A program made the translations under genes and the position numbers. Of a stretch of 64,000 nucleotides of DNA, positions 14,409 to 46,506 are shown one piece after another. The notes under the pieces were generated by a model. That model was not told the DNA's origin, did not search any database, and saw only the letters and a list, made by a program, of their open reading frames with translations. The stretch comes from Antedon bifida (lineage: Eukaryota; Echinodermata; Crinoidea; Comatulida; Antedonidae): contig OY727098.1 in NCBI GenBank assembly GCA_963402885.1, positions 5,451,001 through 5,515,000 on the forward strand, written 5' to 3'. Numbering within the stretch: the stretch's first letter is position 1; each line of letters starts with the position of its first letter.

Positions 14409-15414
14409 CTAATTTGTTTTTACTTTATTTAATGTTTCTTCATCGCGGGGTCCTGTTAGTGTTAGCCAGTTAGCGCTCAGAGCCGTTGCAACACTGAGTC
14501 GGAGCATTTTAGAACAATTTGTGTAGACCTTGTGCGTTGTTTTTTTTTTTATATATAGGCCTAGTCCTAAACTAACCAGTGACATTAATATCAAACCAAT
14601 AATAAGTATTAATCTGATATCGTAGTCAATTATCACTGGTACATTAGTAAGTCTATTTGTTGTTGTCAGTGAAACAGGTCTGGAGGTAACAGACGACATC
14701 ACGCCAGTAGTTTCCTTTAAATCTTTGTTTATGACGGAAAGTGGTTCGCTTTCAGCATATCTTGGAGCAACTTCATCTGGTACTTTTAATCTACAAACGT
14801 AGGAAGAGCCATTTGTAAGCTTAGACGCTGTTTCTGATTGTTCAATCCAAATGTGTGTATTATTATTACGTAAAACATGAAATCGTGATTCGAAATCCCA
14901 TTCTAACTCTGGTTCAGGGTTTGTCTTTTCACACAAGCAAGTCACAATGGCAACTTCTCCAATCTTATAAACTGACTTTTTAAACCTAACAATTGGATAT
15001 TCATCTGATGGTATCTCACGTACAGTAAGCTTCCCAATTCTGGAAGTTAGCAGGATATTGCCATTATATTGTAAAAAGCATTGGTAATCTCCTGCATCTT
15101 CTCTCTCTACTGGATCAATCCTTAAAAAGTGTTTTGCATTGCCATATTGATTGTGAATACTAATGCGGTCCAGATCAAAACCATTACTTGGTTGGTTGAT
15201 AATGTAAGACCCTTTGGTCCAAATGATTTCATATTTTTGTTTCATGTCTTTCGGAACATCTTTAAAGATACAATTGACATATGCTTCACTTCCTTCTACT
15301 GCTGAATTGTCCATTGGTTGATAAAGAAACTTGACCGCAAAAGTTTTATGGAAAAATAGTACAATGATAAATATGACGTATTTGTACATTGTCGTCTGTG
15401 CTCGGTGCGTTAGT
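14409..15414 (-). CDS. Ig-family receptor G1 (two Ig domains, single-pass membrane protein)
   Basis: The likely start is the ATG at 15387-15389, giving 326 residues. The frame is open further upstream, but a splice acceptor (TATTTTCAG, exon from 15414) lies 25 bp before this ATG, and a signal peptide MYKYVIFIIVLFFHKTFA follows. Ig domain 1 spans about residues 24-124 (Cys40, Trp57, Cys104, DAGDYQC). Domain 2 spans about 134-220 (Cys151 or 153, Trp164, Cys199). A Thr/Ser-rich stalk follows, then a helix at about 258-280 and a basic KKK stop-transfer. The tail is encoded partly over A-rich low-complexity DNA and contains AATAAA within the frame near the stop (TAG, 14409-14411), so the true 3' end is uncertain. 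A surface receptor or adhesion protein is inferred; ligand unknown. Closest relatives in the window are at 26739, 30145 and 45493. Confidence 0.8.
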
Positions 15415-15479
15415 CTGAAAATACCAAACAATGTATTTACTGGAAAGGCTAACCAATACGTTAGATGTAAATAATTCAA

Positions 15480-16429
15480 TTATTGAAATATATCACTAGT
15501 CTGATCCTCAATAATTAAATTTAGTAAACTACACGTTGTATTTTATTTTATTCAGTCAAAACCAACAGCAATAAATACCGCCACTAACAGGTTTGAAACA
15601 TACAAAACAATACAACATCAAAAACGGTTAACAATAAAATACAAATAAATAAAAAAATATATATAACATAGATCAGCATGCCATAAACAATTTCAATTTA
15701 AAATTTATATACTTGTTAATACTTGTTTCAGGACATTTTATTCTTTGGTAACATATTATTTATTACAGATAATTGGACGGAAAGAGGTACAATATGAATA
15801 TAATATTGTATAAAGTAACACTACATACCTTGGAGTTGATAATGAATGTTGACTCTTTGAATTGCAGTAACACAATGTAACTAACTCGAATGCTGAAGTC
15901 ATATTAAATCAAACATGTTATGTTTATCTTATCAAACAGGTTACACCGATAGGTTAATATGTTTATATTTTTTAATGGACAACGTTAAATTAGGTACGTT
16001 ACATAAGCAGCAGCGTGATTATGATAGTATCTGTTATTTATTTTTTGATAATGGCCTAGCCAGGTTGTTTGATCTTTCTCTGAATAAGTGTCGTTGACTT
16101 TAATATTATTTTATTCTGTATTATATCATATCATATCATATCACTATCATTATTGCCTTTTTCATTATTTTTTCTTTATTCTCACAATCAACAAGGCAGT
16201 GCAAGGCATCAATTATACAGGTTGATCAAACAAAATATGCATTTAAAAACAAAGAAATTTATAAAGCAATCATAATCAAGATCACCACCAACAAAATCTT
16301 ACAGGCTGAAAACTATTACTTAATAGTCTTATGACCTAGGCCAGATATGACCTGGGCCAGATTTGTATGCATTTAAAGGGAGAATATTATATCTCAACTG
16401 TTATAGGATAATTTTACCTCAAGTAATAA
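15480..16429. other. Intergenic; simple repeats only
   Basis: AT-rich, presumably the 5' intron of the neighbouring minus-strand Ig gene. A TATCA microsatellite lies at about 16118-16145. Nothing else was recognised. Confidence 0.4.
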
Positions 16430-16700
16430 CATGGGATGTGTGACAAATATTATGATCCACCGTATCAAACGCAGCACTCATTTTCCGACATCCATCGCAC
16501 GGAGGATAGTTGTTAACACGCAGTACAGAGCAGTTTCAATACTGTGATGTGCTTTATACGATGATTGAAACGGATCAAATTTTCGATTACTTTTCCAAAA
16601 AAAATACAGATTTGATACTAGTCTATAATAAAATAGGTTCTCTGGATCAAACCCCGATTTCTTTAATAGAAATAGACCAGTTTCCAAAGATAAGTTAACA
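16430..16700 (-). mobile_element. LINE reverse transcriptase fragment
   Basis: The minus-strand reading has FQSSYKAHHSIETALYCV and, after a frame change, MSAAFDTVDHN, the same RT blocks as in the LINE at 7392-9392 (QSAYxxxHSTETxL and SAAFDTIDH). About 270 bp are left and both ends are missing. Confidence 0.65.
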
Positions 16701-17924: not shown

Positions 17925-18692
17925 CTATTCGTAGACAGATACGGATTTGGTTATTTTTTCGAAATATCTCAGACACTGTAAGCTGGTAATTAGAATAATA
18001 TATAGAAACATAATTGACTGAACTGATAAGAGAAGTATTGTAATAATAGGATTAACGACAGTTTTAGATTTTTCAGAGGGTCGAGACTCATCAGAAATTA
18101 GAATTTCATTCGTTATATCAGTATGTATTCTGTGAACTTCTGCGGTAGTTTCGTATGTCAAGCATTCTTCAATTTGGATCGTCATATTCGTTGATTTCAA
18201 AATATCACCAGCGTTCACTGTACACGTTATGTTTTCTCCATGCAATTTACAAGAAACACGTCTGATGAACAACTTGTGAGATAAATTAGCTTGTTGTATT
18301 GACTCATTAAAAATTGCATCATTCGTTGAATTCCATCGAAATTGGATTTCTTCTTTGAGTATCTCTTCAACATGTGTAGGCATGCTGCTTTGAACATTCA
18401 ATGAACTTCCGCGATTCCGCCATTCAAACGCTTTGCACCAAATGTCTGCAGATTGGTTAACCATAAATGCAGTTGCACTGATGTTGACCACAATATGACG
18501 TTTAATAACAACGGTAGATGTACACCAATGTACGTCTTTCGTTTCCATTGTGCATGTGTAATCAGTTTCCTCATCTCTATCCATTGCTATGAACATAGCA
18601 CTACTAATAACCTTGTTCTTATTTGTAGTATTAGTAAAAACTGCGTGTTTAGGGAAATTTTCAACATCCCAGTACAGCTTCAAAGTTGGATA
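17925..18692 (-). pseudogene. Ig-family protein H1, 5'-truncated copy
   Basis: About 255 residues align throughout with the intact relative at 40973-42154. They run from the middle of Ig domain 2 (LYPTLKLYWDVENFPKHAVF) through domain 3 (IWCKAFEW ... FRWNSTNDAIF ... NITCTVNAG) and the stalk to the membrane helix (IITILLLSVQSIMFLYI) and the short tail LRYFEKITKSVSVYE. The signal peptide, domain 1 and the first Cys of domain 2 are missing. The frame stays open upstream to 18770, but that part is not Ig-like; it matches the noncoding block at 34738-34790. The breakpoint is therefore a rearrangement, and the copy is most likely nonfunctional although its remaining frame is undamaged. Confidence 0.75.
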
Positions 18693-18696
18693 CAAT

Positions 18697-19140
18697 TTAC
18701 TTTTTATGATCTTCATTAAAGAAAAGAGAAAGTTTAAAATGGTTTTTTTTGTATAAACTAAACACTTCAAGTAAATAAAATAAAGAGCAAAATATTACAA
18801 TTATTATGCAAAACAAAAATTGGTTAAACATACAAATAAAACAATATACTTGGTGGTAGGTAAATAGGTCACATATTTTTGTAAAACCTGTTCCTATAGA
18901 CCCAAGAAGTGGTCAGATATTGCTTACAATGATGGTCAAAAATATAATTGTCAAGGAACAAGTAGTGTTTATATACAATAGTCCGATGGAGTCCGCAGTA
19001 ATTTATAGTTTGTTTTTAAGTTCATTTTACAACTCATCTTTTATTTGTGCAAGTCCAGCGCAATCAAAAATAAAGTGGTCAACTGTTTCTTTTTTATTAT
19101 TTTCATTGCACAATGTACATTATGCCAGTAAATTCAGCTG
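18697..19140. repeat. Duplicated noncoding block, copy 1 (other copy 34738-35133)
   Basis: ACTTTTTATGATCTTCATTA, TTGTATAAACTAAACAC, AATATACTTGGTGGTAGGTA and GACCCAAGAAGTGGTCAGAT occur in the same order in both copies. On the minus strand 19030-19117 reads like the Cys/His end of a non-LTR retrotransposon (ETVDHFIFDCAGLAQIKDEL), so part of the block is an old LINE tail. Confidence 0.7.
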
Positions 19141-19239
19141 ACCACTTGCATAATAGCCTTTAATAACTTTGGCCATCTAGATAAATTAGCTCCGTTAAAC
19201 TTTCTTATCGGTTATTATTGTTTGGTCATACACTTTTAT

Positions 19240-20206
19240 CTATTAGCTTACGTCATGGTTTACTGTAGTGTCAACAGAGACAGATATTATTGGCAGATAC
19301 ATAGATTTGTTTATTTTTCAGGGAAGTGTTTTTTTAATGTTCATTTTATTGACATTATTTTCCAAATTAGCAGTATGTAGGCTTATGTAGCCTATTACGA
19401 GAAACATTGTAATGAAAATAATTTAGAAAACCATTTTATAAGAGGCATTTTACAATACCAATTTCCTTATTTGACTCGATTAGTTGTACCTTGTGTTTTA
19501 AAGAATTGTTTGGTTTTGTCTTTTTAAAATTAATTAATTGTAATGGTGTGATCTTGATTACAAATGATAGCTGATGATGACGATGATGATCATGACTGGT
19601 ATTATAAGCATTATGGCGACGAAATGGCAATGACGATAATTTATCATGTCCCAACGATACTACAGAAACATTAATAATGTGCCTGCAATAGATTGACTGA
19701 TCTTGTAACACTGAATACTGTGTACGAAAACACTAATAAACTAATTAACGAATAAACTGCCGGTGGAAACGGCGTTTAACCGATTCCACTCGAGAAAAAT
19801 TAACCGACAATTATCTCATTCAAATTATCGGATAAATGCAATAATTTTTAATCTTTGACCTGAAGGACAAATTGTTACGTTTGATGGGCACCTGGTTATT
19901 TGGTAATGACTGATCATGCGCACTTTTAATTACTTACCTGATAACCGATAACTTTGTTTTGGCTGCCGAGACACGGCCTCAAAGTTGACAGATAAAGGTC
20001 ATAATCACGTTGCTATTCCACTTCTTTGAATAAAAAAGTAAACATATTAATGACGTTATTAGGTGCCTCGGATCATATGAAAAGGTTTTATTGAGAACCT
20101 TGTAATCAATTTTCTGTATTGGAAAATAAACAATTTATTACATTGTTAATTCCGAAAAAAGGTAACCTTTAACAAAAAAAAGTAAACATATTCCTATCAT
20201 GATTGC
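19240..20206. repeat. Duplicated block S, copy 1
   Basis: It matches 36525-37500 closely, and 24560-25209, 36035-36165 and 38930-39390 in part. Landmarks: TACGTCATGGTTTACTGTAG, GTTTATTTTTCAGGGAAGTG, a GATGATGACGATGATGATC run, and GGCTGCCGAGACACGGCCTC. Noncoding. Confidence 0.7.
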
Positions 20207-20639
20207 TGTAACATGTTTGTTGTCACCTTTGTTGACACTTTATTGACGTTGTCAGGAGCCTCCGATCACATGAAACGATTTTATTGAGAATCTCGTGAAA
20301 GAAGTAATAATGTGCAGTAATGTCAGTTTTGTTTTCATTTTATATTCGGTATCTATTATCAATAAAAAGACATTGACTAACAATACATCGAATGAAATAT
20401 ATCGCTGTCACTGCTCTGTGTATTTTCTCTATAGGCTCAGACATTTTTATTATTATTTTGAAATAAGCGAAATGTCACCCGCACACACAATAAAAGTTAA
20501 ATTACTAAAACAAATTGTAGTTCACGTAAAGTAAATGCCTTTAATCAATATAATTGATTAGTTGAATATCTGAAACAAATTAATTTCAGTAGTTCACGAT
20601 ACGTTGAACCACTAAAATATTTTTTTATTTAATATTGAA

Positions 20640-20760
20640 TGGCGCCACCAACGGCCATTTTGCCGGAAGTGACGGACCCGGAAGCCAGTTGAACAACAGC
20701 GCGAGTGTGTGAAAATAACCCTGTGATATCCACAAATTTCGATAGGTAACGCTAAATTTT
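20640..20760 (+). promoter_or_regulatory. GC-rich promoter-like island with ETS and YY1-like sites
   Basis: Within 55 bp are GGCGCC, CGGCCATTTTG (YY1-like on the minus strand), CCGGAAGTGACG (a strong ETS/GABP-type site) and a second CCCGGAAG, in sequence much richer in CpG than its surroundings. A possible donor GATAG/GTAACG follows at about 20746. This is the make-up of TATA-less housekeeping promoters in animals, but no gene is seen downstream. Confidence 0.35.
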
Positions 20761-20787
20761 GTCGTTGTAAATAGCATCGATGTGAAA

Positions 20788-20924
20788 ACTAATGTTATCA
20801 AATCTACGTTTCGCGGTACATCTGAGATAGATAAGGTAGGTATCCAAGGCGGAGATTTGTACCGAAGTTTTTGCATTGTGCTCGCCTATGTCAGAATTAA
20901 CCATAATTTATATATAGATGAAAA
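20788..20924. repeat. 130 bp repeat, copy 1 (other copy 23492-23622)
   Basis: Starts TTATCAAATCTACGTTTCGC and includes GGTAGGTATCCAAGGCGGAG and TTTTTGCATTGTGCTCGCC; the two copies look nearly identical. Both strands are open over this stretch, so it could be an exon remnant (a GATAAG/GTAGGT donor-like site is present) or a transposon piece. Confidence 0.6.
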
Positions 20925-21307
20925 GGAAAAATCATGGAGTAACTTATTCTTTACTCCATGGAAAAATACACGAAGAAAAATAGTTTAGATAATATAATAT
21001 TTCGATGAAAATTACCCAGAAATTGTAATGTAAAGCAAGTGGTAAACCACAATAAGGTATTGTACGGTATGCTATAAGGATATGTTGCTAAAAAACTCGC
21101 TTAAATTTAATATAATATAAACAAATATTAGAAGGGTTGAAATACTGTATGATGTTTTAATTTTACTTGACAATGTGAAAGTTCAGAAAAGAGGGCGCCA
21201 TATATTGTTTGGATTTCTAAATAATAATACTGCGTATGAATTCTATTTATAAATCCTTACTAAAATGTGTTTTTTTTATCTTCACTTAATTATTAATATA
21301 AGGAATA

Positions 21308-22340
21308 TGGGTAACATGTTTGTTGTCACCTTTGTTGACACTTTATTGACGTTGTCAGGAGCCTCCGATCACATGAAACGATTTTATTGAGAATCTCGTA
21401 GAAAGAAGTAATAATGTGCAATAATGTCCAGTTTTGTTTTCATTTTATATTCAGTATTTATTATCAATACAAATGAATTGACTAACATTTCTCTATGTAT
21501 TTTCTGTATAGACATTTTTTATTAGGATTATTTTACAATGTGTTTAAATCATCCGCGCAATAGTGAGGAGTAGGCCTACCTTTAAATTACAAGCAGTCAT
21601 AAAATACAAAATTAAATACACACGCAAAAAAAAGATACAAAAGAAACAATGCTTTTAGCAAGCCTTTTATTTCGTGGATACACAAATATAGAAATAAAAA
21701 ATGTTTGGCCTAACAAGAATATTTCATCCAATGAACAGCATAGGCCTACAATATTCTACTTATAAATGCAACAGATTAAAAAATATACTACATTTCTACA
21801 GAAAATACGTAGGCCGATATTATACAAAATTATAACAAACACAACAATACTAATAAAAGAATTTACAAAATGAAAAGACAAAATACACGAAGAAAAATAG
21901 TTTATATAATATAATATTTACAATGAACATTAACCAGAAATTAAAGTTAAAATTGTAATGTAAAGCAAGTGGTAAACCACAATAAGGTATATTACTGTAT
22001 GCTATAAGGATATGTTGCTAAAAAAGTAAGTAACCCGCTTAAATTTGATGTAATATAAACAAATATTAGGAGGGTTGAAATACTGCATGATGTTTGATTT
22101 TACTTGACAATGTGGAAGTTCAAAAAAGAGGGCGCCATATATTGTTTGAATTTCTTCATAATAAATACTGCATATGAATTCTATTTATAAGGCCTTACTC
22201 AAATTTAAATTTAAATTTTTTTATCTTCACTTAATTAATAATATAATAGTTTTCATTCAGATTTAAAATAACAAGTTACTAGCACTTTCTAAACAAAGCT
22301 TTTGTATATAACCTGCAAGATATTCCAGATTATTTTCTTT
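21308..22340. repeat. Duplicated block R, copy 2
   Basis: Uninterrupted copy, used here as reference for the family. It starts ACATGTTTGTTGTCACCTTT, contains CACGAAGAAAAATAGTTTA and AGAGGGCGCCATATATTG, and ends past CTAGCACTTTCTAAACAAAG. Noncoding. Confidence 0.75.
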
Positions 22341-24559: not shown

Positions 24560-25209
24560 TTTTATCTACTAAATTACGTCATGGTTTACTGTACTGTGTC
24601 AACGGAGACAGATATCACTGACAAATATTTATATGCATTACATTTGTTTATTTTTCAGGGAACTGTAAAAATAATGTTCATTTTATTGAAGTTAAGATTC
24701 CAAATTAGCAGTAATGTAGGCTAATGCACAGATTACGAAGAAAAAAACATTCTTTTTATAATATATATATATAATAATAATAATTTTATTTTATATGAGG
24801 CATTTTACAATACCAATTTATTTATTTTAAGACTCGGTTTGTCATCAGGGTGGTGATCTTGATTACAATGATAGCTGATAGCTTTGATGATGATGATGAC
24901 GACGACGACGATGACGACGGCGATGATGATGATGATGATGACTGGGGTTATAAGAATTATGACGAGGATGAAAATGACGATACCCATTGTGACAGAATAG
25001 AATTATAGTATAACGTATTGATGCTAGGAATTATTAGAATTTGTCCTGTCACAATACTACTACAGACACATTAATAATAGACCCAGCAATAGGTTGTTTA
25101 ATCTTGTGACAATTTGTGTACAAAAACACTTAAAAGACAGATAAGGATCATAATCACGTTGCTATTCAGCTTATTTAATATTATACCTTATCCTTTGACC
25201 TAAAAAAGT
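24560..25209. repeat. Duplicated block S, copy 2, with (GAT/GAC)n microsatellite
   Basis: Diverged copy of 19240-20206. The GATGATGACGACGACG-type microsatellite is expanded at about 24878-24942. Confidence 0.65.
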
Positions 25210-26738: not shown

Positions 26739-27815
26739 ATGTGCAAAACTAGATGTAAATATGGTTTCGTACTTTTCATTGTACTATTATGCCAGAACAG
26801 TTTTGCGGCAAAGTTTGCTTATGAACCAATGGACAATTCAGCAGTTGAAGGAAGAGAAGAATACGTGACTTGTATTTTTAGAGACATCCCAGAAGACATG
26901 AAACACAAATATGACGTCATTTGGACAAAAGATTCTTATGTTATCAGTCAACCAAGTAATGGATTTGATCTGACAAGATTTACATTTCACAATAGATATG
27001 AAATTGCAAAACACTTTTTAACTATTGATCCAGTCAAGAGAAAAGATGCTGGAAGTTACCGTTGTTATCTAAAATACAATGGCAATATCCTTCTTACTTC
27101 CAGAATTGGCAAGCTTACTATACGTGAAATACCATCCGATAAATATCCAATTGTCCGGTTTAAGAAGTCAGCTTACAAAATTGGAGAAATTGTCACTGTG
27201 ACTTGTTTTTGTGAAAAAACAAACCCTGAACCGGAGTTGAAGTGGAACACAAATATACGATTTGGTTTGTCTGACGACAATTGGCCGATTGAATCAAATA
27301 CTACACACATTTGGATTGAAGAATCTGTAAAAGCAACTGTATCTACAAATGGCTCTTACTATGTCTGTCGACTAAAAGTAGAAGATGAAGTTGCTCTAAG
27401 ATATGGTCAAAGCAAAAAACTTTACATCATGAAAAAAAAATCTAAAGATACAAAGACTGTATTATCAGAAACAATATCCGTTAACACCAGACAGGTTTTT
27501 TGGACGACAAAGAGAGACAAAGTACCAGAGAGAATTGACCTTCAATATCCTTACTATTTCGAGAGAAAAGGCCTAATCGTCATTATTGCTTTCATATTAT
27601 GCCTATTATGCCTATACTGCCTAGTAATATTACTATTAGTTAGTCCCCTAATGTTGTATAGGTTGTCTAGGTCTGAGGTAAACATACAAAAGATGATAGT
27701 AGACTATCAAGCGATGTTGTCCCAAGAGACCAGCTCTACCGAAACCCGGAAGAATAATTATCCCCTTCGTCGAGTCGGGAGTTTTCATCGGAAAATTAAA
27801 CAAGAAGATGATTGA
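26739..27815 (+). CDS. Ig-family receptor G2 (two Ig domains, YxxM tail)
   Basis: The 358-residue frame starts at the first ATG after a splice acceptor (26713). The signal peptide is MCKTRCKYGFVLFIVLLCQN plus SFA. Ig domain 1 spans about residues 27-130 (Cys45, Trp62, DAGSYRC with Cys109). Domain 2 spans about 138-230 (Cys156/158, Trp169, Cys210). A Lys/Thr-rich stalk leads to a helix at about 278-306. The cytoplasmic tail of about 50 residues contains IVDYQAML: Tyr323 in a YxxM context (PI3K p85-type docking) that is near an ITIM but has Met at +3. Other family members lack it. N-glycosylation sequons are present. Intact; most similar to the broken copy at 30145-31102. A type I cell-surface receptor is inferred. 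Confidence 0.85.
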   Translation: MCKTRCKYGFVLFIVLLCQNSFAAKFAYEPMDNSAVEGREEYVTCIFRDIPEDMKHKYDVIWTKDSYVISQPSNGFDLTRFTFHNRYEIAKHFLTIDPVKRKDAGSYRCYLKYNGNILLTSRIGKLTIREIPSDKYPIVRFKKSAYKIGEIVTVTCFCEKTNPEPELKWNTNIRFGLSDDNWPIESNTTHIWIEESVKATVSTNGSYYVCRLKVEDEVALRYGQSKKLYIMKKKSKDTKTVLSETISVNTRQVFWTTKRDKVPERIDLQYPYYFERKGLIVIIAFILCLLCLYCLVILLLVSPLMLYRLSRSEVNIQKMIVDYQAMLSQETSSTETRKNNYPLRRVGSFHRKIKQEDD

Positions 27816-30144: not shown

Positions 30145-31102
30145 ACATCACATTTTTGCGGTAGAGTTTGCTTATGAACCAATGGACGATTCAGCAGTTG
30201 AAGGAGGAGAAGCATACGTGACTTGTATTTTTAGAGACATCCCAGAAGACATGAAACACAAATATGACGTCATTTGGATCAAAGATTCTAATGTTATCAG
30301 TCAACCAAGTAATGGATTTGATCTGGCAAGATTTACATTTCACAATAGATATGAAATTGCAAAACACTTTTTAACTATTGATCCAGTCAAGAGAAAAGAT
30401 GCTGGAAGTTACCGTTGTTATCTAAAATACAATGACAATATCCTTCTTACGTCCGATAAATATCCAATTGTCCAGTTTAAGAAGTCAGCGTACAAAATTG
30501 GAGAAATTGTCACTGTTACTTGTTTTTGTTAAAAAATAAACCCTGAACCGGAGTTGAAGTGGAACACAAAGTCACGATTTCGTTTGTCTCAGGACAATTG
30601 GCCGATTGAATCAATTAATACTACACACATTTGGATTGAAGAATCTGGAGAAGCAACTGTATCTACAAATGGCTCTTACTATGTCTGTCGACTAAAAGTA
30701 GAAGATGAAGTTGCTCTAAGATATGGTCAAAGCAAAAAACTTTACATCATGAAAAAAAAATCTAAAGATACAAAGACTGTATTATCAGAAACAAAATATG
30801 TTACCTCCAGGCATGATTTATTGAAAACAAATACAAAAGGATCCGAGAGAATTGACAATCAATATCTCAATGTCAAAAGAACAAGCCTAATCTTCATTAT
30901 TGCTGTTATATTAGGCCTAATAGTAGGCATAGTTATTTCCCTCATTTTGTATAGGTTGATTTATAGGCCTGAGGTACACAGCAGACAGAAGGTGAAGGTA
31001 GAATTAGAAACAGTTCTGTCGACACAGACCAGCTCTACCGAAGCCCGGCTTCGAGCAGGGAATGTTCACCGGAAAATTCAACCGGAAGAAATTGTATTTT
31101 AG
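30145..31102 (+). pseudogene. Ig-family receptor G3, broken copy of G2
   Basis: Nearly identical to the gene at 26739-27815 through both Ig domains. Homology starts at FAVEFAYEPMD, with no signal peptide and no initiating Met in context. An in-frame deletion of about 36 bp removes the linker residues SRIGKLTIREIP after NDNILLT. A TAA at about 30530 replaces the Glu codon after FC in domain 2. After the stop the frame continues to the membrane helix (LIFIIAVILGLIVGIVISLI) and a tail ending EEIVF. That tail differs from its sister and lacks the YQAM motif. Most likely a recent dead duplicate; an assembly error could explain the stop, but not also the missing signal peptide. Confidence 0.85.
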
Positions 31103-32943: not shown

Positions 32944-34219
32944 TTAGGCCTCAGTGCTAGTCGAATAATACACAGATTCGGATTTAGTAATTTTATCAAA
33001 ATATCTCAGACACTGTAAGCTGGTAATTATTATAAGGTATAGAAACATGATAGACTGAACTGATAAGAGAAGTATTGTAATAATAGGATTCACGAAAGTT
33101 TCAGATGTATGAGAAGGCTGAGATTTATCAGAAGTAAGAGTGTTCTTAGAAGTGTAAGGATGTGTTTCTGCCGCCATCATACCAGTGCCTTTTTTGTGAA
33201 CTTCAGTGCTGGCTGGCTGGCTTTTGTGAACTTCGTACGCTAAACATTCTTCTATTTGAATTGTCATCGTTGTTGATTTCAAGATATCACCAGTTACATG
33301 TTATGTTTTCTCCTTTCATTTCACTAGAAACACGTCTGATGAACAACATATTTGATAAATTAGCTTGTTGTATTGCTTCGCTAAAAATCGCATGATTTGT
33401 TGATTTCCATTGAAATTTGATTTGTTCTTTGCGTATATTGCTGTTTTTAACATTCAATGAAGTTTGGAATTTCCATTCAAATGCATAGCACCAAATTGTT
33501 GCATATTGGTTTACAATAAATTCAGTTGCGTTAATGCTGACCACAATATGAGGTTTTATAACAATGGTAGATGTACACCAATGTACGCCATTCATTTTCA
33601 TGTTGCATGTGTAATCAGTTCCCTCATCTCTATCCATTGCTATGAACATAGCAATACTAATAATCTTGTTCTTATTTGTAGTATTAGTAAAAACTGCGTG
33701 TTTTGGGAATGTTTCCGTATCCCAGAAAAGCTTCAAAGTTGAATATGGGTATGTTTCACAATTTAATGTGACATTGTCACCAACGAAGTACTCTGATTTT
33801 GAAGGGCTACATACCGGTTCTGAAGGTATAGGCAGCACTACTAGTTCTTTTTTACCAAAATTAACAAGTAATTCATCGCCTTGATATATACATTCGTAAA
33901 CGCCACTGTCTGTTTCCTTTAGGTCTGAGAGAACAATTGCTAGCCGCTGTGTGTCCTCTGCCATGGGTAAAGCTGTATAGTTGATTTCAACATCATCGTT
34001 TTTCTTCCAAATGGTATTTTCAATGATGATTTGTATTTCAGATCCTTTATCAATATAAAAATCACAATAAAATGTAAACGATTTGCCAACAACAGCATAA
34101 CTAACATCATTTCCAGGATAGCACTGCAAATTTGGAGTTGATTTAATTAAGGTAAAGTGAAGGAACGGGTAAATAAGAACATTTAACAAACGACTCATAT
34201 TGAATAAATGGAAATGCAT
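32944..34219 (-). pseudogene. Ig-family protein H2, frameshifted copy
   Basis: The first frame (from 34219, or more likely the ATG at 34198) encodes a signal peptide MSRLLNVLIYPFLHFTLIKS and three Ig domains: D1 with FTFYCDF and DSGVYEC, D2 with VTLNCETYPYSTLKLFWD and TDYTC, and D3 with IWCYAFEW and FQWKSTNHAIF. It breaks after NITC. The stalk, membrane helix (IITILLLSVQSIMFLYLIII) and tail LRYFDKITKSESVYY continue in another frame (33282-32944). Alignment with the copies at 17925 and 40973 shows an 8 bp deletion near 33290. The splice acceptor before the ATG of the intact relative (TTTCCAG) reads TTCAAT here. Both points suggest a recent pseudogene, though an allele or sequencing error is possible for the deletion. 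Confidence 0.8.
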
Positions 34220-34737: not shown

Positions 34738-35133
34738 TTACTTTTTATGATCTTCATTAAAGAAAGTGTCCTTTTTTTGTATAAACTAAACACATCAAGT
34801 AAATAAAATAAAGAACAAAATATTACAATTATTATGCAAAACAAAAATTGGTTAAAAATACAAATAAAACAATATACTTGGTGGTAGGTAAATAGGTCAC
34901 ATAATTTTGTAAAACCTGTTCCTATAGACCCAAGAAGTGGTCAGATATTCAGTGCTTACAATGATGGTCAAAAATTGTCAAGGAACAAGTGGTGTCTATA
35001 TACAATAGGTCCCTTATCAAAGTCTTCCCAAGTAGAGTGGAGTCCGCAATAATTTATAGTTTATTATACAACTCGTCTTTTATTTGTGCAAGTCCAGCGC
35101 ATTAAAAAATAATGTGGTCAACTGTTCCTTTTT
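34738..35133. repeat. Duplicated noncoding block, copy 2
   Basis: Colinear with 18697-19100 and cut at its right end by the mobile element at 35134. The remaining part resumes at 35891. Confidence 0.7.
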
Positions 35134-35890
35134 AGTCGCGTGGACGCGACTCTATAGTTCACTATGTCGGTCGGTCTGTCTGTCGGTCTGTCGGTCTGTC
35201 TGTCGGTCCGGTATCACTATGCGTTTTATCGCTTTCTGACCTTATCTTGATATCAGTTTAATCTAGCTAAGTCAATTTTTCACAGTATATTCCTTATGGC
35301 CAGGAATCGATGTGGTTATGTTTTCACGGTGCGCAATAAAAAATCACGCGGTCTACGCACGATTTGACGAAATCACGTTTGTAATCATATCTTCACAACC
35401 ATGAATCACAATTAAATAAAATTTGGTACTCATAAATTTCAGGGCATAAATCATCATATGGCAATACAATTACGTGCGTAGCGCATGTAAGAAAATTTAT
35501 TTTCGATGAAATAAGAGTACGTTTCAGGCAATTTTAAGCGTTTACAAAATTGCCATGAGTGCGCAGATTTTTGCGCGCGCACTGCGCGTTAAATGTTATT
35601 GCGCACTCTTTTTGCCCGATTTCTGTTTTTTTGACTTACTTTTCAACTAGAAATTACGTTATACGAGCACGTCAAAAGTGACAGGCTACGCACGTGTAAA
35701 TTAAAAAAATATAAATGTTTTTAAACATTTCAACATTTTTAAACATGTTCAGTAATTTCGGTCAGTATAGTTCACTATGTCGGTCGGTCTGTCGGTCTGT
35801 CTGTCGGTCTGTCTGTCTGTCTGTCGGTCTGTCTGTCGGTCCGGTATCACTATGCATTGTAGCACGCGACTTAATGGCTGTTGGCCTTGT
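35134..35890 (+). mobile_element. Full-length 757 bp CGCGACT-family element
   Basis: It starts with the hairpin AGTCGCGTGGACGCGACT and TATAGTTCACTATGTCGGTC, followed by a (GGTCTGTC)n microsatellite and TCCGGTATCACTATGC. A unique interior of about 520 bp with CGCGCACTGCGCGTTAAA follows. Then come a second TATAGTTCACTATGTCGGTC, microsatellite and TCCGGTATCACTATGC, and the end GTAGCACGCGACTTAATGGC and TGTTGGCCTTGTT. The uninterrupted paralogous block at about 19088-19110 serves as the empty site and fixes both ends. No coding frame. Confidence 0.8.
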
Positions 35891-36399
35891 TTATTATCGT
35901 TGCACAATGTACATTATGCCAAAAAATTCAGATGACCACTTGCATAATAGTCTTAAATAATAATTTTTGCCGTCTAGATAAATTAGCTCCGTTAAACTTT
36001 CTTATCGGTTATTATTGTTTGGTCATAAGCTTTTCTCTATTAGCTTACGTCATTGTTTACTGTAGTGTCAACAGAGACAGATACATTATTGGAAAATAGA
36101 TAGATTTGTTTATTTTTCAGAGAAGTGTTTCTTTAATGTTCATTTTATTGACGTTATTTACCAAACTACTATTCCACAGTGAAAAACAGCTCTATTTTAT
36201 TTTGTAGCCCAATGTGACTGCATGCATAGATTTCAATGAAAACCAGGCTTTAAACTTTAATCTTAAATTATTAGTATAAGTATACACTTTATGTATTATA
36301 CTTGGTGTTATTATTTAAATTCATCCTGTCTTCAATAATTTGACTAATACGCTTATTAGAACAAATCTCAGCACATTCAAAAACTTTTTTTATTATCGT
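35891..36399. repeat. Duplicated block S, partial copy 3
   Basis: 35905-36165 repeats the left part of the S block (TTAGCTCCGTTAAACTTTCT, GTTTATTTTTCAG). The rest is AT-rich spacer. Confidence 0.6.
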
Positions 36400-37500
36400 T
36401 GCACAATGTACATTATGTCAGTAAATTCAGCTGACCACTTGCATAATAGCCGCAATCTAGATAAATTAGCTCCGTTAAACTTTCTTATCGGTTATTATTG
36501 TTTGGTCATAAACTTTAAATTATTAGCTTACGTCATGGTGTACTGTAGTGTCAACAGAGACAGATATATTATTATTGGCAAATAGATAGATTTGTTTATT
36601 TTTCAGGGAAGTGTTTCTTTAATGTTCATGTAATTGACATTATTTTCCAAATTAGCAGTATGTAGGCTTATGTAGCCTATTACGAGAAACCATTGTATTG
36701 AAAATAATTTAGAAAACCATTTTCCAGTTAAGCTTGAGGTCAAATTTACCTTTACCTTTACCTTTACCTAAAGAGGCATTTTACTTATTTGACTCGGTTT
36801 GTTGTACCTTGTGTTTTAAAGAATTGTTTGGTGTTGTCTTTTTAAAATTAATTAATTGTTAATGGTGTGATCTTGATTACAAATGATAGCTGATGATGAC
36901 GATGATGATCATGACTGGTGTTTTAAGCATTATGACGACGAAATGGCAATGACGATAATGATACAGAATACTTATTATTGATGCTCTCAATTGTTTTTGA
37001 TTTATCATGTCCCAACGATGCTACATAAACATTAATAATGTGCCTGAAATAGATTGACTGATCTTGTAAAACTGAATACGGTGTACGAAAACACTAATAA
37101 ACTAATTTACCGATAAACTACCTTTGAAAACGGCGTTTAACCGATTATTGAATTATCTCATTCAAATTATCGGATAAATGCAATCATTATTAATCTTTGA
37201 CCTGAAGGACAAAATTGTTGCGTTTGATGAGCACCTGCGCACTTTTAATTACTTACCTGATAACCGATAACTTTGTTTTGGCTGCCGAGACACGGCCTCA
37301 AAGTTGACCAAAGATCATAATCACGTTGCTATTCCGCTTCTTTGAATAAAAAAGTAAACATATTAATGACGTTATTAGGTGCCTCGGATCATATGAAAAG
37401 GTTGTATTGAGGATCTTGTAATCAATTTTCTGTATTGGAAAATAAATAATTCATTACATTGTTAATTCCGAAAAAAAAGTAACCTTTGACAAAAAAAGTA
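36400..37500. repeat. Duplicated block S, copy 4
   Basis: Closest copy of 19140-20206, including GGCTGCCGAGACACGGCCTC. A (CTTTAC)n run at about 36748-36770 is specific to this copy. Confidence 0.7.
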
Positions 37501-38460
37501 AACATATTCCTATCATGATTGCTGTAACATGATTGATGATGGGATAAAAATAACATATTTGTTGTCAACTTTTAAACTTTTTTGACGTTGTCAGGAGCCT
37601 CGGATCACATGAAACGATTTTATTGAGAATCTCGTAGAAAGAAGTAATAATGTGCAGTAATGTCAGTTTTGTTTTCATTTTATATTCAGTATCTATTATC
37701 AATAAAAAGGAATTGACTAACAATAAATCGAATGAAATGTTGTCACTGCTCTGTGTATTTTCTCTATAGACATTTTTATTATTATTTTGAAATGAGCGAA
37801 ATGTCACCCGCACACACAAAAAAGATACAAAAGAAAAACTGCTTTTGGCAAGCCTTTTATTTCGTGGATACACAAAATAGAAATAAAAATGTTTGGTCTA
37901 CAAGAATATTAACATTGAATTATGGATGCAGTCACCTCAATATCCGAATTCAATGAACAGCATACAGTATGAATGCAATATAAATAAATAATGATAATAA
38001 ATGCAACAAATTAAAAAAAATAAACGTAGGCCGATATTATACAAAATTATGACAAACACAACAATACTAATAAAAAGAATTTACAAAATGAAAATGCAAA
38101 ATACACGAAGAAAAATAGTTTAGATAAAATAATATTTACAATGAAAATTACCCAGAAATTGTGATGTAAAGCAAGTGGTAAACCACAATAAGGTATATTA
38201 CGGTATGCTATAAGGATATGTTGCTAAAAAAAAAAAAAGTAACCAACTTGAATTTTATGTAATATAAACAAATATTAGAAGGGTTGAAATACTGTATGAT
38301 GTTTTAATTTACTTGACAATGTGAAAGTTCAGAAAAGAGGGCGCCATATATTGTTTGGATTTCTAAATAATAAATACTGCGTATGAATTCTATTTATAAA
38401 TCCTTACTAAAATTTGTTTTTTTTTATTTTCACTTAATTATTAATATAATGAATATGGGT
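37501..38460. repeat. Duplicated block R, copy 4
   Basis: Colinear with 21308-22250 and closest to the copy at 20207-21250. It shows the uninterrupted state where that copy carries the 400 bp insert. Noncoding. Confidence 0.7.
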
Positions 38461-38929
38461 AATTACTATCAGACAAAGAAGGATATATACATATTTTTAA
38501 ATTAAAAACTTCTTATTACAATCAAAGAGTGAATAATTTAATCTAAAAATCTGTTTAAAGAAATTTGTTTCTCACCATTTTTCCTTTAAAACCTAGAAAT
38601 TCAAAATATACAGATTAGAATTAAGGTTTATCATAAAGTTGAAACAGTTAAAAAATACGAGAGAAATATATACATTATTGTAATGCTTACACAGGCTACA
38701 AATATATTATTACTTATTGAATAGAGAAAAGCGAAATGTACAGCGAATACAGAGTCTGGTTTTCTTAAAATTGGGTTCTTAATTTCATAAGAGATGCTTC
38801 ATAAATGTGAGTATGAATTGTTATCAAGTGCAACAAGTATAGCATTGACTATGCATTGACGATGAAAACCAGGCAACTTTAATCTCAAATTATTAGTATA
38901 AGTATACACGTTATGTATTTTGTTTTGTC
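38461..38929. other. Intergenic, nothing recognised
   Basis: AT-rich spacer between two duplicated units. Confidence 0.4.
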
Positions 38930-40420
38930 GTCATGTACCCTGTGTTTTAAAGAATTGTTATTATTATTTTTATTTTATTAAAACATATTTAGGCAGGATA
39001 ACATAATTCAGAAAAGAAAAGATCACAACATTCCTGTTTAAAAAAATTAAAATTGTTTAGTTTTGTCTTTTAGTAATAGTAATCTAGAGGAGGTATTATT
39101 GGTGGTGATCTTAATTACAATAATAGCTGAGCTGATACTCATTATGATACAAAATACATTATAATGTATTGATGCTATCAATTTTTAGAATTTGTCATGT
39201 CACAATACTACAGACACATTAATAATAGGCCTAGCAATATGTTGTTTGATCAGGGATGTAAACATCTCTCTGGTTTGATCTTGTGACACTGAATGTTGTG
39301 TGCGAACAGAATTGTCAAATTGAAAGACAGATTAAGATCATTATCACGTTTCTATGCGGCTTATTTGCCATATACCTTATCCTTTGACAAAAAAAGTAAA
39401 CATATTCCTATCATGATTGCTGTAACATGTTTGATGGGATATAAATAACATGTTTATTGTAAACTTTGACACTTTATTGACGTTGTCAGGAGCCTCTGAT
39501 CACATGAAACGGTTTTTATTGATAATCTCTTAGAAAGACGTAATAATGTGCAATAATGTCCAGTTTTGTTTTCATTTTATATTCAGTATTTATTATCAAT
39601 ACAAATGAATTGTCTAACACTTCTATATGTATTTTCTCTATAGACATTTTTTATTATGATTATTTTACAATGTGTTTAAATCATCCGCGCAATAATAGAT
39701 TATGAAAAATACACACACAAAAAAAGATACAAAAGAAACAATGCTTTTGGCAAGCCTTTTGTATCGTGGATACACAAAGATAGAAATAAAAAATGTTTGG
39801 CCTAACAAGAATATTACATCCAATGAACAGCATAGGCCTAGTATTCTACTTGTAAATGCAACAGATTAAAAAAATATACTACATTTTACAGAAAATACGT
39901 AAGCCGATATTAAACAAAATTATGACAAACACAACAATACTAATAAAAAGAATTTACAAAATGAAAAGGCAAATTACACGAAGGAAAATAGTTTAGATAA
40001 TAATATTTACAATGAACATTAACCATAAATTAAAATGAAAATTATAATGTAAAGCAGGTTGTAAACCACCAAAAGGTATGTTACGGTATGCTATACGGAT
40101 ATGTTGCTAAAAAGAAACAAAAAGTAACCCGCTTAAATTTGATGTAATATAAACAAACAAATATTAGAAGGGTTGAAATACTGTATGATATGTGTTTTAC
40201 TTGACAATGTGAAAGTTAAGAAAAGAGGGCGCCATATATTGTTTGGATTTCTACATAATAAATACTGCGTATGAATTATATTTGTCTATCTATTTAAGTC
40301 CTTACTAAAATTTGGTTTTTTTTATCTTCACTTAATTATTAATATAATAATTTTCATTCAGATTTAAAGTAACAAGTTACTAGCACTTTCTAAACAAAGC
40401 TTTTGTATATAATCTGCATG
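38930..40420. repeat. Duplicated blocks S (partial) and R, copy 5
   Basis: 38930-39390 is a reduced S block. 39390-40420 is an R block with TTGACGTTGTCAGGAGCCTC, AGAGGGCGCCATATATTG and CTAGCACTTTCTAAACAAAG. Confidence 0.65.
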
Positions 40421-40972
40421 AAATTGCTGCTATGGAGCAAGCAAAACGTAAGGGTCAACTAATAATGGGCGTGACATTACCAAAAATAAAATACTTTATT
40501 TTATGAGTTTCTGGTATTTAGTTTTTATGAACCATTAGCATCAACTATTTATTAGAAATAGAGACACTAAGTCTTTTGATATATTTATAAAAATTTTCAA
40601 ATAATTGTTTCAGTTAAATTTTATTGCATTGCAAAATTTAGTGATGTGTCAAAAACTCAGTACGAGGAAGCCTATGACCGTCAATAGAGGAATAAGTTAA
40701 ACCAAATAAGATGTTGTAATTCAGTTGCTTATTGAATGATGGAAATGAAAACGTAAAATAGTTTTAAAATTTTAAGATTATACGCCTCTGCTTTTAAAAC
40801 AGCGACTCAGCGACTGCAGTTTAACAAACTATTAAACTTGAAATGACTACTAAAACGCATTGAAACAAAAAACATTTGTATTTAAAATACTACGTACGTT
40901 CATATCAGTAATGTCAATTTAACGTACACACTTAAAATCAACTTTTACATTTAAATACAAATTATGGATACT
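40421..40972. other. 3' flank of H3 with an orphan copy of the H 5'-flank block
   Basis: About 40485-40620 (TTATGAGTTTCTGG ... CATCAACTATTTATTAGAAA) resembles 42340-42470, upstream of H3. It may be the remains of the 5' region of another, lost H gene. Confidence 0.5.
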
Positions 40973-42154
40973 TTACGGACTTGTAATTTTGGAAAAATAT
41001 CTCAGACACTGCAAGCTGGTAATTATGATAAGATATAGAAACATGATTGACTGAACTGATAGGAGAAGTATTGTAATAATAGAATTCACAAAAGTTTTAG
41101 ATGTCTGCAGAGGCTGGGATTCATCAGACGGGACAGTTTTCTCAGAAGCGTAAGGAACTTTAGTACTGGTTTCTTCGTACGCTAAACATTCCTCTATGTG
41201 TATGGTCATCGTCGTTGATTTCAAAACATATCCAGCGTTCACTGTACACGTTATGTTTTCTCCTTGCATTCCACAAGAAACATGTCTGATAAACGTGTTG
41301 GATAAATTAGCTTGTTGTATTGCCTCGCCAAAAATTGCATCATTTGTTGAATTCCATCGAAATTGGATTTCTTCCTTGTTTATCTGTTTATATTTGCTAC
41401 TTTTAGCTGAGGTTTGTTGTTTCCATTCAAGGGCATTGCACCAAATTGTTGCCGACTTATTAATCATAAAATCTGTTGCGTTAATGTTAACCACAATATG
41501 ACGTTTGATAACAACGGTAGATGTACACAAATGTGGAACGCTATCCGTTGTCATTGTGCATGTGTAATCAGTTCCCTTATCTCTATCCATTGCTATGAAC
41601 ATAGCACTACTAATAACCTTGTTCTTATTTGTAGTATTAGTAAAAACTGCGTGTTTAGAGAATTGCTGCTCCGCATTATCCCAGAATAGCTTCAAAGATG
41701 GATACGGGTATGTTTCACAGTTTAATGTGACATTGTCACCAACAAAGTACTCTGACTTCGAAGAGACACATACTGGGTCTGAAAGTTTTGGCAGCACTAC
41801 TAGTTCCATCTTGCCGGAATTAGCAATTAATCCATCGCCTTCATATATGCATTCGTATACGCCACTGTCTGTTTCCTTTAGGTTTGAGAGAACATTTTCT
41901 AGCCGCAGTTTGCCCATTATCATTGAAGAACCAGTAGAGTTAATCTCAACATGATCATTTTTCATCCAAATGGTATTGTCAATGATGGTTTGCACTTCAA
42001 ATATTTTAGAAATATCAACATCACAATAAAATGTAAATATTTTGCCGGCAACAGCATAACTAACATCATTTCCAGGATAGCATTGCAGAACATCATTTGA
42101 TTTAATTATGGGGAAGAAGAGAAACAGGTACACGAGAAACGTATACTGACTCAT
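40973..42154 (-). CDS. Ig-family protein H3 (three Ig domains, short tail), intact
   Basis: 393 residues. A splice acceptor TTTCTTTCCAG sits one base before the ATG, so a 5' UTR intron is likely. The signal peptide is about 1-19 (MSQYTFLVYLFLFFPIIKS). Ig domain 1 spans about 25-122 (Cys44, Trp63, DSGVYEC with Cys102). Domain 2 spans about 127-217 (Cys146, Trp158, TDYTC with Cys199, and an additional Cys129/Cys210 pair). Domain 3 spans about 220-321 (Cys239, Trp267, Cys303). A Ser/Thr-rich stalk precedes a helix at about 354-380, and only 12-14 cytoplasmic residues (LRYFSKITSP) remain, without a recognisable signalling motif. Many Asn-X-Ser/Thr sites. The short tail suggests a ligand, decoy or adaptor-dependent receptor; function unknown. 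The other two H copies in the window are damaged, so this may be the only working one here. Confidence 0.85.
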   Translation of the reverse strand: MSQYTFLVYLFLFFPIIKSNDVLQCYPGNDVSYAVAGKIFTFYCDVDISKIFEVQTIIDNTIWMKNDHVEINSTGSSMIMGKLRLENVLSNLKETDSGVYECIYEGDGLIANSGKMELVVLPKLSDPVCVSSKSEYFVGDNVTLNCETYPYPSLKLFWDNAEQQFSKHAVFTNTTNKNKVISSAMFIAMDRDKGTDYTCTMTTDSVPHLCTSTVVIKRHIVVNINATDFMINKSATIWCNALEWKQQTSAKSSKYKQINKEEIQFRWNSTNDAIFGEAIQQANLSNTFIRHVSCGMQGENITCTVNAGYVLKSTTMTIHIEECLAYEETSTKVPYASEKTVPSDESQPLQTSKTFVNSIITILLLSVQSIMFLYLIIITSLQCLRYFSKITSP

Positions 42155-44229: not shown

Positions 44230-44960
44230 AGGTAAGGTAAGCAGAGAACAGCGTAGGATACAGTATTCTACTCTATTAAATATATTACATTTCTATAGAA
44301 AATGTGTAGGCCGATATTATACAAAATTATGACAAACACAACAGTATTATAATAATAATTTTTAACGGAGTGGAGTTGTGGCTTGGTGGTTATGATGCTT
44401 GGCTACCACTCCAAGGGTCCTGGGTTTTAGTCCCGTCACATGTCAGGATTTTTTATAAGGACAAAATTACAATTCCACTCCCAAAGACTTGTAATAAGAC
44501 TTTGTTTATGTAGAGCGTTTTATGTTTGTCTTGTGAACCTCTGAGGATCATAATGATCAGCAATTTCTGGATGGATCACGCTCATTAAATATGGTAAAAA
44601 AAATACTTATAGGCTACAATAATATAATTTACTAAATGAAAATGCAAAATGCAAAATCTAGTTTAGATAATATAATTTACAATGAACCTTAACCAGTGGG
44701 GTACAATAGTCCGCATAGTAGAATTTATAATCGATTGCTGTGCGTCGCCAGATATTTTGGGGTTTCAACAGTAATTTAATCAATATTTCTTATGAAGTCT
44801 ATAGGTTATTTATAAACATTTTAAAATGTATATTTACTTAGGCCTATTTATTAAAATAATAGTTTTTATTCAGATTTAAAATAACAAATTACTTAATCCT
44901 ATAGCACTTTCTAAACAAAGCGTTTGTATAAATAACCTGCAATATATTCCAGATTATTTT
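44230..44960. repeat. Duplicated block R, copy 6, interrupted by a SINE
   Basis: 44270-44360 and 44640-44960 match the R block (GTAGGCCGATATTATACAAA, TTTACAATGAAC, GCACTTTCTAAACAAAGC). The GGGCGCC part is lost. Confidence 0.6.
44373..44605 (+). mobile_element. tRNA-derived SINE
   Basis: A tRNA-like head with box A-like TGGCTTGGTGG and box B-like GGGTTTTAGTCCC about 45 bp later is followed by an unrelated body and a LINE-like tail (ATCACGCTCATTAAATATGG) ending in an A-run. It is absent from the other copies of the duplicated block, so it is a later insertion. Confidence 0.7.
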
Positions 44961-45463
44961 CTTGCGACATTTAATTTGTGAACGAATAACACTTTTGTCA
45001 AACACAGTTTACAAAATACGATCATACCTGTACCATAAACCATATCCTTATCTTTTTAAAAACCGTACTTTGTCCTTCCAAACATGTATTAACCTAGCAG
45101 TAACGTAGGCCTATTTGTTATATGATAAAAGTAACATTTCTTATTTAGCATTCGAGCTGATTACAGTGCGTTACTGCAAAATAAAAGTCAACTGCAATGA
45201 TAATCAATTACATGTATGTACTTACAATTGTTTTAAATCATATATTCATTTTCATCCTTCCATCGTCGCATTTTTAGATAAATATAGTTAGAAGTGAATA
45301 ATTTCCAAACACAAGTATTATTCTTACATACTCAATTCAATTTTAATATTACGTCATCGTGAAGATGTTATTTTCATATTTAAAGTGTTAACATCACTAA
45401 ATACTTTTTCGCTTGTTTGTGTGTATTGTATTGTAATACATATTAACTAATATACTTGTTTTA
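44961..45463. other. 5' flank / probable 5' intron of the Ig gene at 45493
   Basis: AT-rich. It ends with CTTGTTTTAAG before 45464, a weaker but plausible acceptor at the place equivalent to its relatives. Confidence 0.4.
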
Positions 45464-45492
45464 AGGTTAAATATCTGAGAACAGAGGCGACA

Positions 45493-46506
45493 ATGTGCAA
45501 CGCTAGATGTAAATATGGTGTCATACCGGTAGGCCTACTTATCATTGTACTATTCTGCCAGACATGTTTTGCAGTGAGATTTGTTTATCAACCAAGAGAC
45601 CATTCAGCAGTAGAAGGAAACGAGGCATATATAACCTGTATCTTCAAAGATATCTCAGAAGAAATGATATATTCTTATGACGTAATCTGGACCAAAGGGT
45701 CTTACATTATCAGAGAACCAATCAATGGATTTGATCTGGAACGTATTACTATTCACGATCAATATGAAAATGCAAGACACTTTTTGAGGATTGATCCGGT
45801 CAAGAGAGAAGATGCAGGAGATTACAAATGTTATTTGAAATATAACGGCAATATCCTGCTTACTTCCAGTATTGGGAAGCTTATTGTGCGTGAAATACCA
45901 TCCGATAAATATCCAATTGTCCAATTTACGAAGTCAGCATACAAGATTGGAGAAATTGTCGTTGCGTTCTGTTTGAGTGAAAAGACAATCCCTAAACCAG
46001 AGTTAGCGTGGGACAAGCCATCAGACGCACAAGAACATTGGCCAATGGAATCAAATAACACACACATTTGGATTAAAGAGTCAATAACGGCCTCTACCTC
46101 AACAAATGGCTCTAAATACGTGTGTCGGTTAACAGTACCGGATGAGGTTGCTCCGAGATATGCTGAAACTGAACCACTTTACGTCACAAACAAAGATTTA
46201 AAGGAGACAAGTACCTCTACTGTTTTGACTTCACCAGAACAAAAACATGTTACTTCTAAACCTAATTTGTTATCAACTGTAAACCAGGTGTTAGTACGTG
46301 GGGATAACAATGTATATTATTTCCTATTTGCAATTACAATATTAAGCATACTAATTCTACTCTTAATAATAATGGTCATGAAACTATTTTATGAACAAAA
46401 AGTAATAAAGGAAGTAATGAAACAACTTAAAACACCCACTGATACAAACAACATAACAACTAGGCGTAGGAGAATCGACCGAAGCAATCAAACCACAAAC
46501 GAATAG
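45493..46506 (+). CDS. Ig-family receptor G4 (two Ig domains), intact
   Basis: 337 residues. The signal peptide starts MCNARCKYGVIPVGLLIIVL and ends about FCQTCFA; it keeps the MC...RCKYG beginning of the relative at 26739. Ig domain 1 spans about 30-132 (Cys49, Trp66, DAGDYKC with Cys113). Domain 2 spans about 140-231 (Cys160, Trp173, Cys211). A Ser/Thr-rich stalk leads to a membrane helix at about 275-296. The 40-residue basic tail (FYEQKVIKEVMKQLKTP, then TTRRRRIDRSNQTTNE) has no ITIM or YxxM. The ectodomain is well conserved with the gene at 14411-15389, including VPDEVAPRYAE-EPL. The second-domain Cys pair CxC seen in its relatives is reduced to a single Cys. Confidence 0.85.
   Translation: MCNARCKYGVIPVGLLIIVLFCQTCFAVRFVYQPRDHSAVEGNEAYITCIFKDISEEMIYSYDVIWTKGSYIIREPINGFDLERITIHDQYENARHFLRIDPVKREDAGDYKCYLKYNGNILLTSSIGKLIVREIPSDKYPIVQFTKSAYKIGEIVVAFCLSEKTIPKPELAWDKPSDAQEHWPMESNNTHIWIKESITASTSTNGSKYVCRLTVPDEVAPRYAETEPLYVTNKDLKETSTSTVLTSPEQKHVTSKPNLLSTVNQVLVRGDNNVYYFLFAITILSILILLLIIMVMKLFYEQKVIKEVMKQLKTPTDTNNITTRRRRIDRSNQTTNE

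Follow-up and report, generated by a model that had tools for sequence, protein, structure and literature searches.

A cluster of interleaved immunoglobulin-domain genes in the crinoid Antedon bifida, probably short-tailed members of a family organized like vertebrate paired receptors

The DNA discussed here is a window of 64,000 nucleotides from the crinoid Antedon bifida (assembly GCA_963402885.1, 315.6 Mb in 27 contigs), located on contig OY727098.1, hereafter C11, at C11:5,451,001-5,515,000; positions given without a contig name are those of the window. Between 14409 and 46506, it carries seven immunoglobulin (Ig) genes or gene remnants that belong to two families, G with two Ig domains and H with three, interleaved and on both strands. 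We consider it probable that these genes belong, as short-tailed forms, to a large family of single-exon Ig receptors in crinoids that is organized like the paired receptors of vertebrates and would have diversified via duplication and gene conversion. This reading is based mainly on two related arrays of C11, outside the window, in which nearly identical ectodomains are joined to different transmembrane (TM) segments and tails.

Short and Long Modules in Related Arrays

Together with more distant relatives, G and H copies were found at 210 or more places. Once merged, these amount to at least 178 loci, distributed over seven contigs (C1, C7, C8, C11, C14, C15, and C16); the latter number is a union compiled by hand and a rough lower bound, and some of the single matches may be ordinary Ig exons. 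The large groups are at C7:18.39-18.55 Mb (45 loci), C7:24.70-24.83 Mb (24), C11:25.73-25.79 Mb (18), and C1:30.76-30.84 Mb (13).

The first informative array contains five H genes at C11:22.777-22.788 Mb. Two of them, L008 (an open reading frame, ORF, of 784 aa) and L043 (741 aa), are long-tailed and carry 8 and 6 YxxI/L/V motifs, respectively, in the tail, whereas the tails of L005-L007 consist of 14-15 residues. The short L006 and the long L043 share 99, 92, and 98% identity in the three Ig domains (D1, D2, and D3) and 44% over TM and tail; for the short L005 and the long L008, the corresponding values are 73, 88, and 93%, and then 24%. When their DNA is compared in 100-base steps, L006 and L043 are 94-100% identical over a stretch that begins about 500 nt 5' of the ATG and ends in late D3, after which the identity falls to 88, 60, and 58% and then below 52%. 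L006 matches L007 at 97-100% over the region that starts in late D1/D2 and includes about 1.4 kb of the 3' flank, and it thus reads as a chimera whose 5' part is L043-like and whose 3' part is L007-like. In the identity profiles, the switch between modules sits at the TM, as would be expected from intra-exonic recombination or gene conversion. The possibility that the short forms are truncated long forms is not favored, as the DNA of L005 and L008 past the TM is only 34-63% identical per 100-base step.

The second array, termed J, lies at C11:24.77-24.97 Mb, and 10 of its 11 merged loci were fetched. Seven combine a short tail with a TM Arg (among them L060, whose 5' part contains a stop), two have long tails (356 and 364 aa) and no TM Arg, and L056 breaks off before the TM. 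The neighbors L053 (short) and L054 (long) are 92, 83, and 76% identical in D1, D2, and D3 and 31% from the TM on, with the break in DNA identity again at the TM. In the C16 array (four of five merged loci fetched), Arg occurs in the TM of all three ORFs that reach it, L061 ending earlier. In the array at C11:25.7 Mb (ten of 18 loci fetched), the tails are 80-290 aa long with 1-6 YxxI/L/V, and the TM core has no basic residue.

Overall, the short modules combine a tail of 6-33 aa with a polar TM, and the long modules have a TM core free of charge and a tail that can reach about 380 aa. Among the short H forms, the TM module is 76-97% identical, except for L002, whose pairs reach 70-81%. The four long forms do not make up one group in a tree built from 17 ectodomain rows: the fewest changes between tail types are 3, at least 2 are forced by the starred branches, and the long forms were grouped in 0% of 200 bootstrap trees.

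Two further observations concern relatives of G and H. At C7:24694622-24729732 there are 21 head-to-tail genes with three Ig domains at a spacing of about 1.67 kb; 20 of the 21 rows have no internal stop and one has a TAA, and the tails (87-89 aa) are conserved in the seven copies read. L062 (C16:17409300-17411900) is a 594-aa ORF in which D2-D3 is apparently duplicated.

Transmembrane Residues, Tyrosine Motifs, and Possible Signaling Partners

When the best hydrophobic window of 21 residues is located and its residues 4-18 are taken as the TM core, Arg is present in the core of all seven J short forms and all three C16 ORFs (10/10 short forms), versus 0/46 of the other loci examined. The short H loci have instead the motif SVQS, whose Gln (codon CAG) is invariant in 7/7 and is present in H1 and H2 of the window as well. 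This Gln occupies the apparent position of the Arg, and the two may be positionally homologous.

The long tails contain more Yxx[ILV] motifs than their shuffled versions in 7/7 cases tested: L008 has 8 versus 3.6 (30/2000 shuffles as high), L043 has 6 versus 2.4 (30/2000), L045-L047 have 6 each versus 1.2-1.5 (at most 5/2000), L052 has 6 versus 2.5 (126/5000), and L054 has 7 versus 2.0 (3/5000). A possible partner for such motifs is encoded at C7:23,229,063-23,234,240, where SH2, SH2, and phosphatase exons follow each other in that order, in what looks like an SHP gene. Tyrosine-phosphatase exons also occur in dense runs at C10:6.40-6.82 Mb and C11:23.41-23.53 Mb, suggesting expanded phosphatase genes.

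A mechanism can be proposed on these grounds. The long forms, once phosphorylated, would recruit SH2 phosphatases, for example the SHP-like one, leading to inhibition, and the short forms would pair through their polar TM residue with a putative signaling partner, leading to activation, or would serve as decoys. Both would bind the same fast-changing ligands, of pathogen or self origin, on immune cells. The H genes of the window would then be Gln-type short forms, and the G genes a second recognition family in the same cluster, devoid of signaling motifs.

A bolder formulation is offered tentatively, with rather more doubt than trust: a crinoid would possess a full paired-receptor system outside chordates, with at least two single-exon Ig families in which one ectodomain is combined with either of two modules. 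One would be a short module with a polar TM (with Arg in one family, activating and coupled to an adaptor), the other a long, inhibitory module with tyrosine motifs. The pairs would be homogenized by gene conversion, the window cluster would be a Gln-type offshoot, and the layout would be older than the echinoderm/chordate split or have evolved independently.

The Cluster in the Window

The order and strands of the seven copies (G1, H1, G2, G3, H2, H3, G4) are those given in a preliminary description of this DNA. Four copies are intact. G1 (14409..15389, minus strand) is a single ORF encoding a signal peptide, two Ig domains, a TM, and a short tail, with 63% identity to G2; G2 (26739..27815, plus strand) encodes two Ig domains, a TM, and a tail of about 58 aa; H3 (40973..42154, minus strand) has three Ig domains, the conserved TM with SVQS, and a 14-aa tail; G4 (45493..46506, plus strand) has two Ig domains, a TM, and a tail of about 41 aa. 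The remaining three of the seven are disabled. H1 (17925..18693, minus strand) is a 5'-truncated remnant that lacks the signal peptide and D1 but retains part of D2, D3, the TM with Gln, and a short tail; its homology to H3 ends at 18693. H2 (32983..34198, minus strand) is a pseudogene with a frameshift near 33287-33294, present as two pieces (33293-34183 and 32983-33294), of which the 3' one retains the conserved TM with Gln. The preliminary description had listed truncated and frameshifted copies, which applies to H1 and H2, respectively. The pseudogene G3 (30150..31102, plus strand) is not frameshifted; it has an in-frame TAA at 30530-30532 and a gap of 12 codons, and it lacks both a signal peptide and a start.

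The Ig nature of both families, also proposed there, is borne out by Pfam: six window ORFs were scanned, and for five of them the matches to Ig models far exceed chance. The best E values are 3.1e-13 for H3, 2e-11 for H2, 3.1e-8 for G1, 3.4e-7 for G2, and 8.1e-7 for G4 (29.9 bits at a cut-off of 30, with an "ig" match above its cut-off, 22.7 vs 21.8). H1 does not match (0.11), having lost D1, and is assigned to H because of its 71% identity to H3. G3 is assigned by its 77% identity to G2, the scan having covered the other six. Searches of solved structures with G and H sequences returned generic Ig superfamily (IgSF) matches only, and structure prediction was of low confidence (mean predicted local distance difference test score of 38.2 for H and 36.7 for G), probably because few window sequences were aligned (3 and 4, respectively).

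The cluster continues past the window, and its merged loci span 119 kb (C11:5,465,583-5,584,484; 15 loci). Elsewhere, G is represented by four loci at C7:5.40-5.42 Mb and by single ones on C1, C8, C11, and C15.

Gene Form and the 5' End

In every intact gene read, whether G, H, or a relative, one ORF extends from the signal peptide through the tail. The coding region in one exon, as first described, stands for the four intact window copies. The splice acceptor proposed just before the ATG was judged by eye. By such inspection, a pyrimidine-rich AG lies about 20-30 nt 5' of the ATG in 12/12 G loci printed and 0-1 nt 5' of it in 6/8 H loci printed, so that a 5' non-coding exon, with an intron before the ATG, is likely. 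The two other H loci, L006 and L007, have no pyrimidine-AG beside the ATG and carry TATAAAAG farther upstream. The same sequence also precedes L043, and the gene start of these three loci differs from that of the other H genes.

Duplication and Turnover

The rapid birth and death of copies suggested earlier is supported by the three disabled copies out of seven, the high copy number, and the near-copies of G2/G3 and H3. G2 and G3 DNA are 96% identical over a 305-base stretch of D1, and a 93% copy of H3 lies on the opposite strand at C11:5548937. Furthermore, the non-coding flank of H1 (18744..22324, no strand assigned) is duplicated in pieces, with 82-93% identity at 34772-40425 and 76-81% at 24560-26136; the copies thus arose through segmental duplication together with their flanks. 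Retroposition is not favored as the copying route for the window cluster, the flanks having been duplicated along with the genes. Two further copies, L022 of family G and L002 of family H, resemble G4 and H3 in inverted arrangement, and each adjoins a high-copy repeat.

This young repeat is present within 46623-64000 of the window in direct and inverted copies that are 91-99% identical. A 1.28 kb piece of it occurs near full length at 43 or more places on ten contigs, 39 of them at 96-100% among the matches listed. The window also contains a 1.5 kb tandem duplication at 4126-7196 (78.5% identity) and a reverse transcriptase fragment at 2387-2935 (RVT_1, E 3.3e-11).

Selection and Points against a Paired Organization

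The ratio of mean nonsynonymous to mean synonymous divergence (mean dN/mean dS, NG86) is 0.67, 0.62, and 0.46 in D1, D2, and D3 of H, 0.70 in its stalk, and 0.49 in its short TM and tail; in G, it is 0.34 in D1, 0.48 in D2, and 0.60 from stalk to tail. Pairs with dN > dS amount to 2/34, 4/33, and 0/34 in the H domains, 14/35 in the H stalk, and 2/20 in the short TM and tail, and to 0/91, 0/91, and 14/87 in G D1, D2, and stalk to tail. These values indicate moderate constraint rather than overall diversification, with the stalk as the loosest part. The immune or self-recognition role proposed at the outset is plausible and gains plausibility because related arrays show paired short and long tails. 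Since the ratio is below 1 in every domain, diversifying selection is not demonstrated.

Several observations weigh against a paired organization. Whole-domain positive selection was not seen in any G or H region. All H and G copies read in the window cluster have short tails, with no long-tailed partner seen among them, and the evidence for pairing comes from relatives 17-20 Mb away. The TM of the window H genes has Gln rather than Arg, a basic residue in the TM core being found in 0/7 H short forms and 0/11 G; G has no TM charge, and 0/11 of its tails contain YxxI/L/V. Strict immunoreceptor tyrosine-based inhibitory motifs (ITIMs, [SIVL]xYxx[ILV]) are few and occur in four of the seven long tails: 3 in L008 (139/2000 shuffles as high), 1 in L043 (968/2000), 0 in L045-L047, 3 in L052 (119/5000), and 3 in L054 (127/5000). 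Even Yxx[ILV] is not enriched in the tails of two C7 relatives, L028 and L033, which are shorter. The ectodomain tree is poorly resolved, with 2/14 inner branches starred and 10 open, and 103/500 label shuffles needed equally few changes. Lastly, no FcRgamma/zeta-like match or immunoreceptor tyrosine-based activation motif (ITAM) match over the cut-off was found, in searches that were weak, as the control genomes gave no match either; PF11628 gave 18 weak matches (best 19.5 bits vs a cut-off of 25) and PF02189 none.

Alternative Explanations

The best surviving alternative, although unlikely, is that G and H are freely duplicated adhesion or gamete/tissue-recognition proteins, with the short tails acting as anchors and the tyrosine tails of the relatives serving adhesion signaling. 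The average purifying selection and the motif-free G tails fit it, as do the matches to solved structures, mostly adhesion IgSF proteins (CEA, DCC, contactin, NCAM; also FCRL5). Such generic Ig matches, however, reveal little of the function, and the many copies, the disabled ones among them, and the ectodomains common to both tail types would be unusual for housekeeping adhesion.

Less probable still is an allorecognition or histocompatibility cluster like Hydractinia Alr or Botryllus fuhc: crinoids are solitary animals in which fusion is not known, the loci are spread across seven contigs rather than gathered in a single complex, and no sushi domain was found among the proteins scanned. In its favor, those systems are known to consist of IgSF receptors that lie in clusters and bear tyrosine motifs (PMC12065747, PMC11999971).

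A relic cluster of little function, in which repeats and gene conversion maintain the similarity of the duplicates and most copies are non-expressed, would suit the three disabled copies and the richness of the cluster in repeats, with its adjoining high-copy element. It is very improbable given that four ORFs are intact and encode both a signal peptide and a TM, and given the dN/dS values of 0.34-0.67 in the Ig domains, the conserved short H TM module, and the 20 of 21 stop-free copies of the related C7 array.

Mitochondrial Contig

The mitochondrial contig of the assembly is 15,844 bases long with a G+C content of 26.9%. Conserved stretches of COX1, judged by eye, fit best with AAA = Asn, ATA = Ile, and AGA = Ser, which is the echinoderm code; code and gene order together indicate a crinoid. 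As the frames read, the genes nad1, nad2, and nad6 are opposite to the other protein genes. The gene nad4L lies between trnH and nad5; a paper cited in the Comaster schlegelii study (PMC8820819) has a title that announces a unique rearrangement of nad4L among crinoids. Eleven of the 12 light-strand tRNAs of Thaumatocrinus naresi (PMC10013537) are on the strand of nad1, nad2, and nad6 here, trnF being undetected by ARAGORN, which also gave some doubtful extras. AT content and size resemble those of Comaster schlegelii (PMC8820819).

Comparison with Known Systems

The crinoid family resembles both the KIR/FcR families and the FcoR family and is a member of neither. With the vertebrate FcR/FCRL, XFL, KIR, and LILR/PIR families it shares clustered, multicopy Ig receptors with a type I membrane layout. 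Two of the related crinoid arrays, though not the window cluster, also share with them pairs of nearly identical ectodomains on different TM/tail modules, with YxxI/L/V in the long tails. The activating short forms of vertebrates carry a TM Arg, and the short forms of the J and C16 arrays have one as well. The vertebrate long forms carry YxxV/L/I, the families evolve by birth-and-death and domain shuffling, and in Xenopus XFL the tail exons are separate from the TM exons (PMC2413239). In contrast, no multi-exon gene with separate tail exons was encountered among the intact crinoid genes read: the whole coding region is one ORF, and the long tails, which reach about 380 aa, contain as many as 8 YxxI/L/V. 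The crinoid genes also differ in the Gln of the H short forms, and neither a specific sequence kinship with the vertebrate receptors nor an ITAM adaptor was found.

VCBPs have a chitin-binding domain behind their V domains, for which the six window ORFs gave no match. Sea urchin Toll-like receptors are the echinoderm precedent for large tandem families with intronless coding regions, although they are made of LRR/TIR rather than Ig domains.

Hydractinia Alr genes are multi-exon. They form one complex, whereas the crinoid genes are single-exon and distributed over many arrays. The likeness lies in a large invertebrate IgSF membrane family; that of Hydractinia comprises 41 members, and candidate ones carry tyrosine motifs (PMC11999971, PMC12065747). 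In Botryllus, the fester/FcoR system places receptors without known signaling domains beside IgSF receptors with ITIM, hemITAM (a half ITAM), or core YxxI/L/V (PMC12065747), and the crinoid arrays likewise encode motif-less and motif-bearing receptors side by side. However, FcoR proteins combine V-Ig, sushi, and C2 domains, whereas only Ig domains were found in the crinoid genes, with no sushi domain in the six window ORFs and the five relatives (or parts of them) scanned. Moreover, the crinoid short and long forms have a common ectodomain, unlike FcoR.

Since invertebrate IgSF receptors with ITIM or hemITAM are on record for Botryllus and Hydractinia (PMC12065747, PMC11999971), the kind is known, and it is the crinoid paired-tail variant that looks new. 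Among the titles and abstract starts listed in searches of the open-access literature, with subscription papers mostly outside it, none concerned a family of Ig receptors with paired tails in crinoids or other echinoderms. If the paired organization is correct, this crinoid would offer a tractable outgroup with Arg-TM/short-tail and tyrosine-tail versions of one ectodomain, encoded without introns, and it would become testable whether common ligands with opposing outputs drive fast receptor turnover outside vertebrates.

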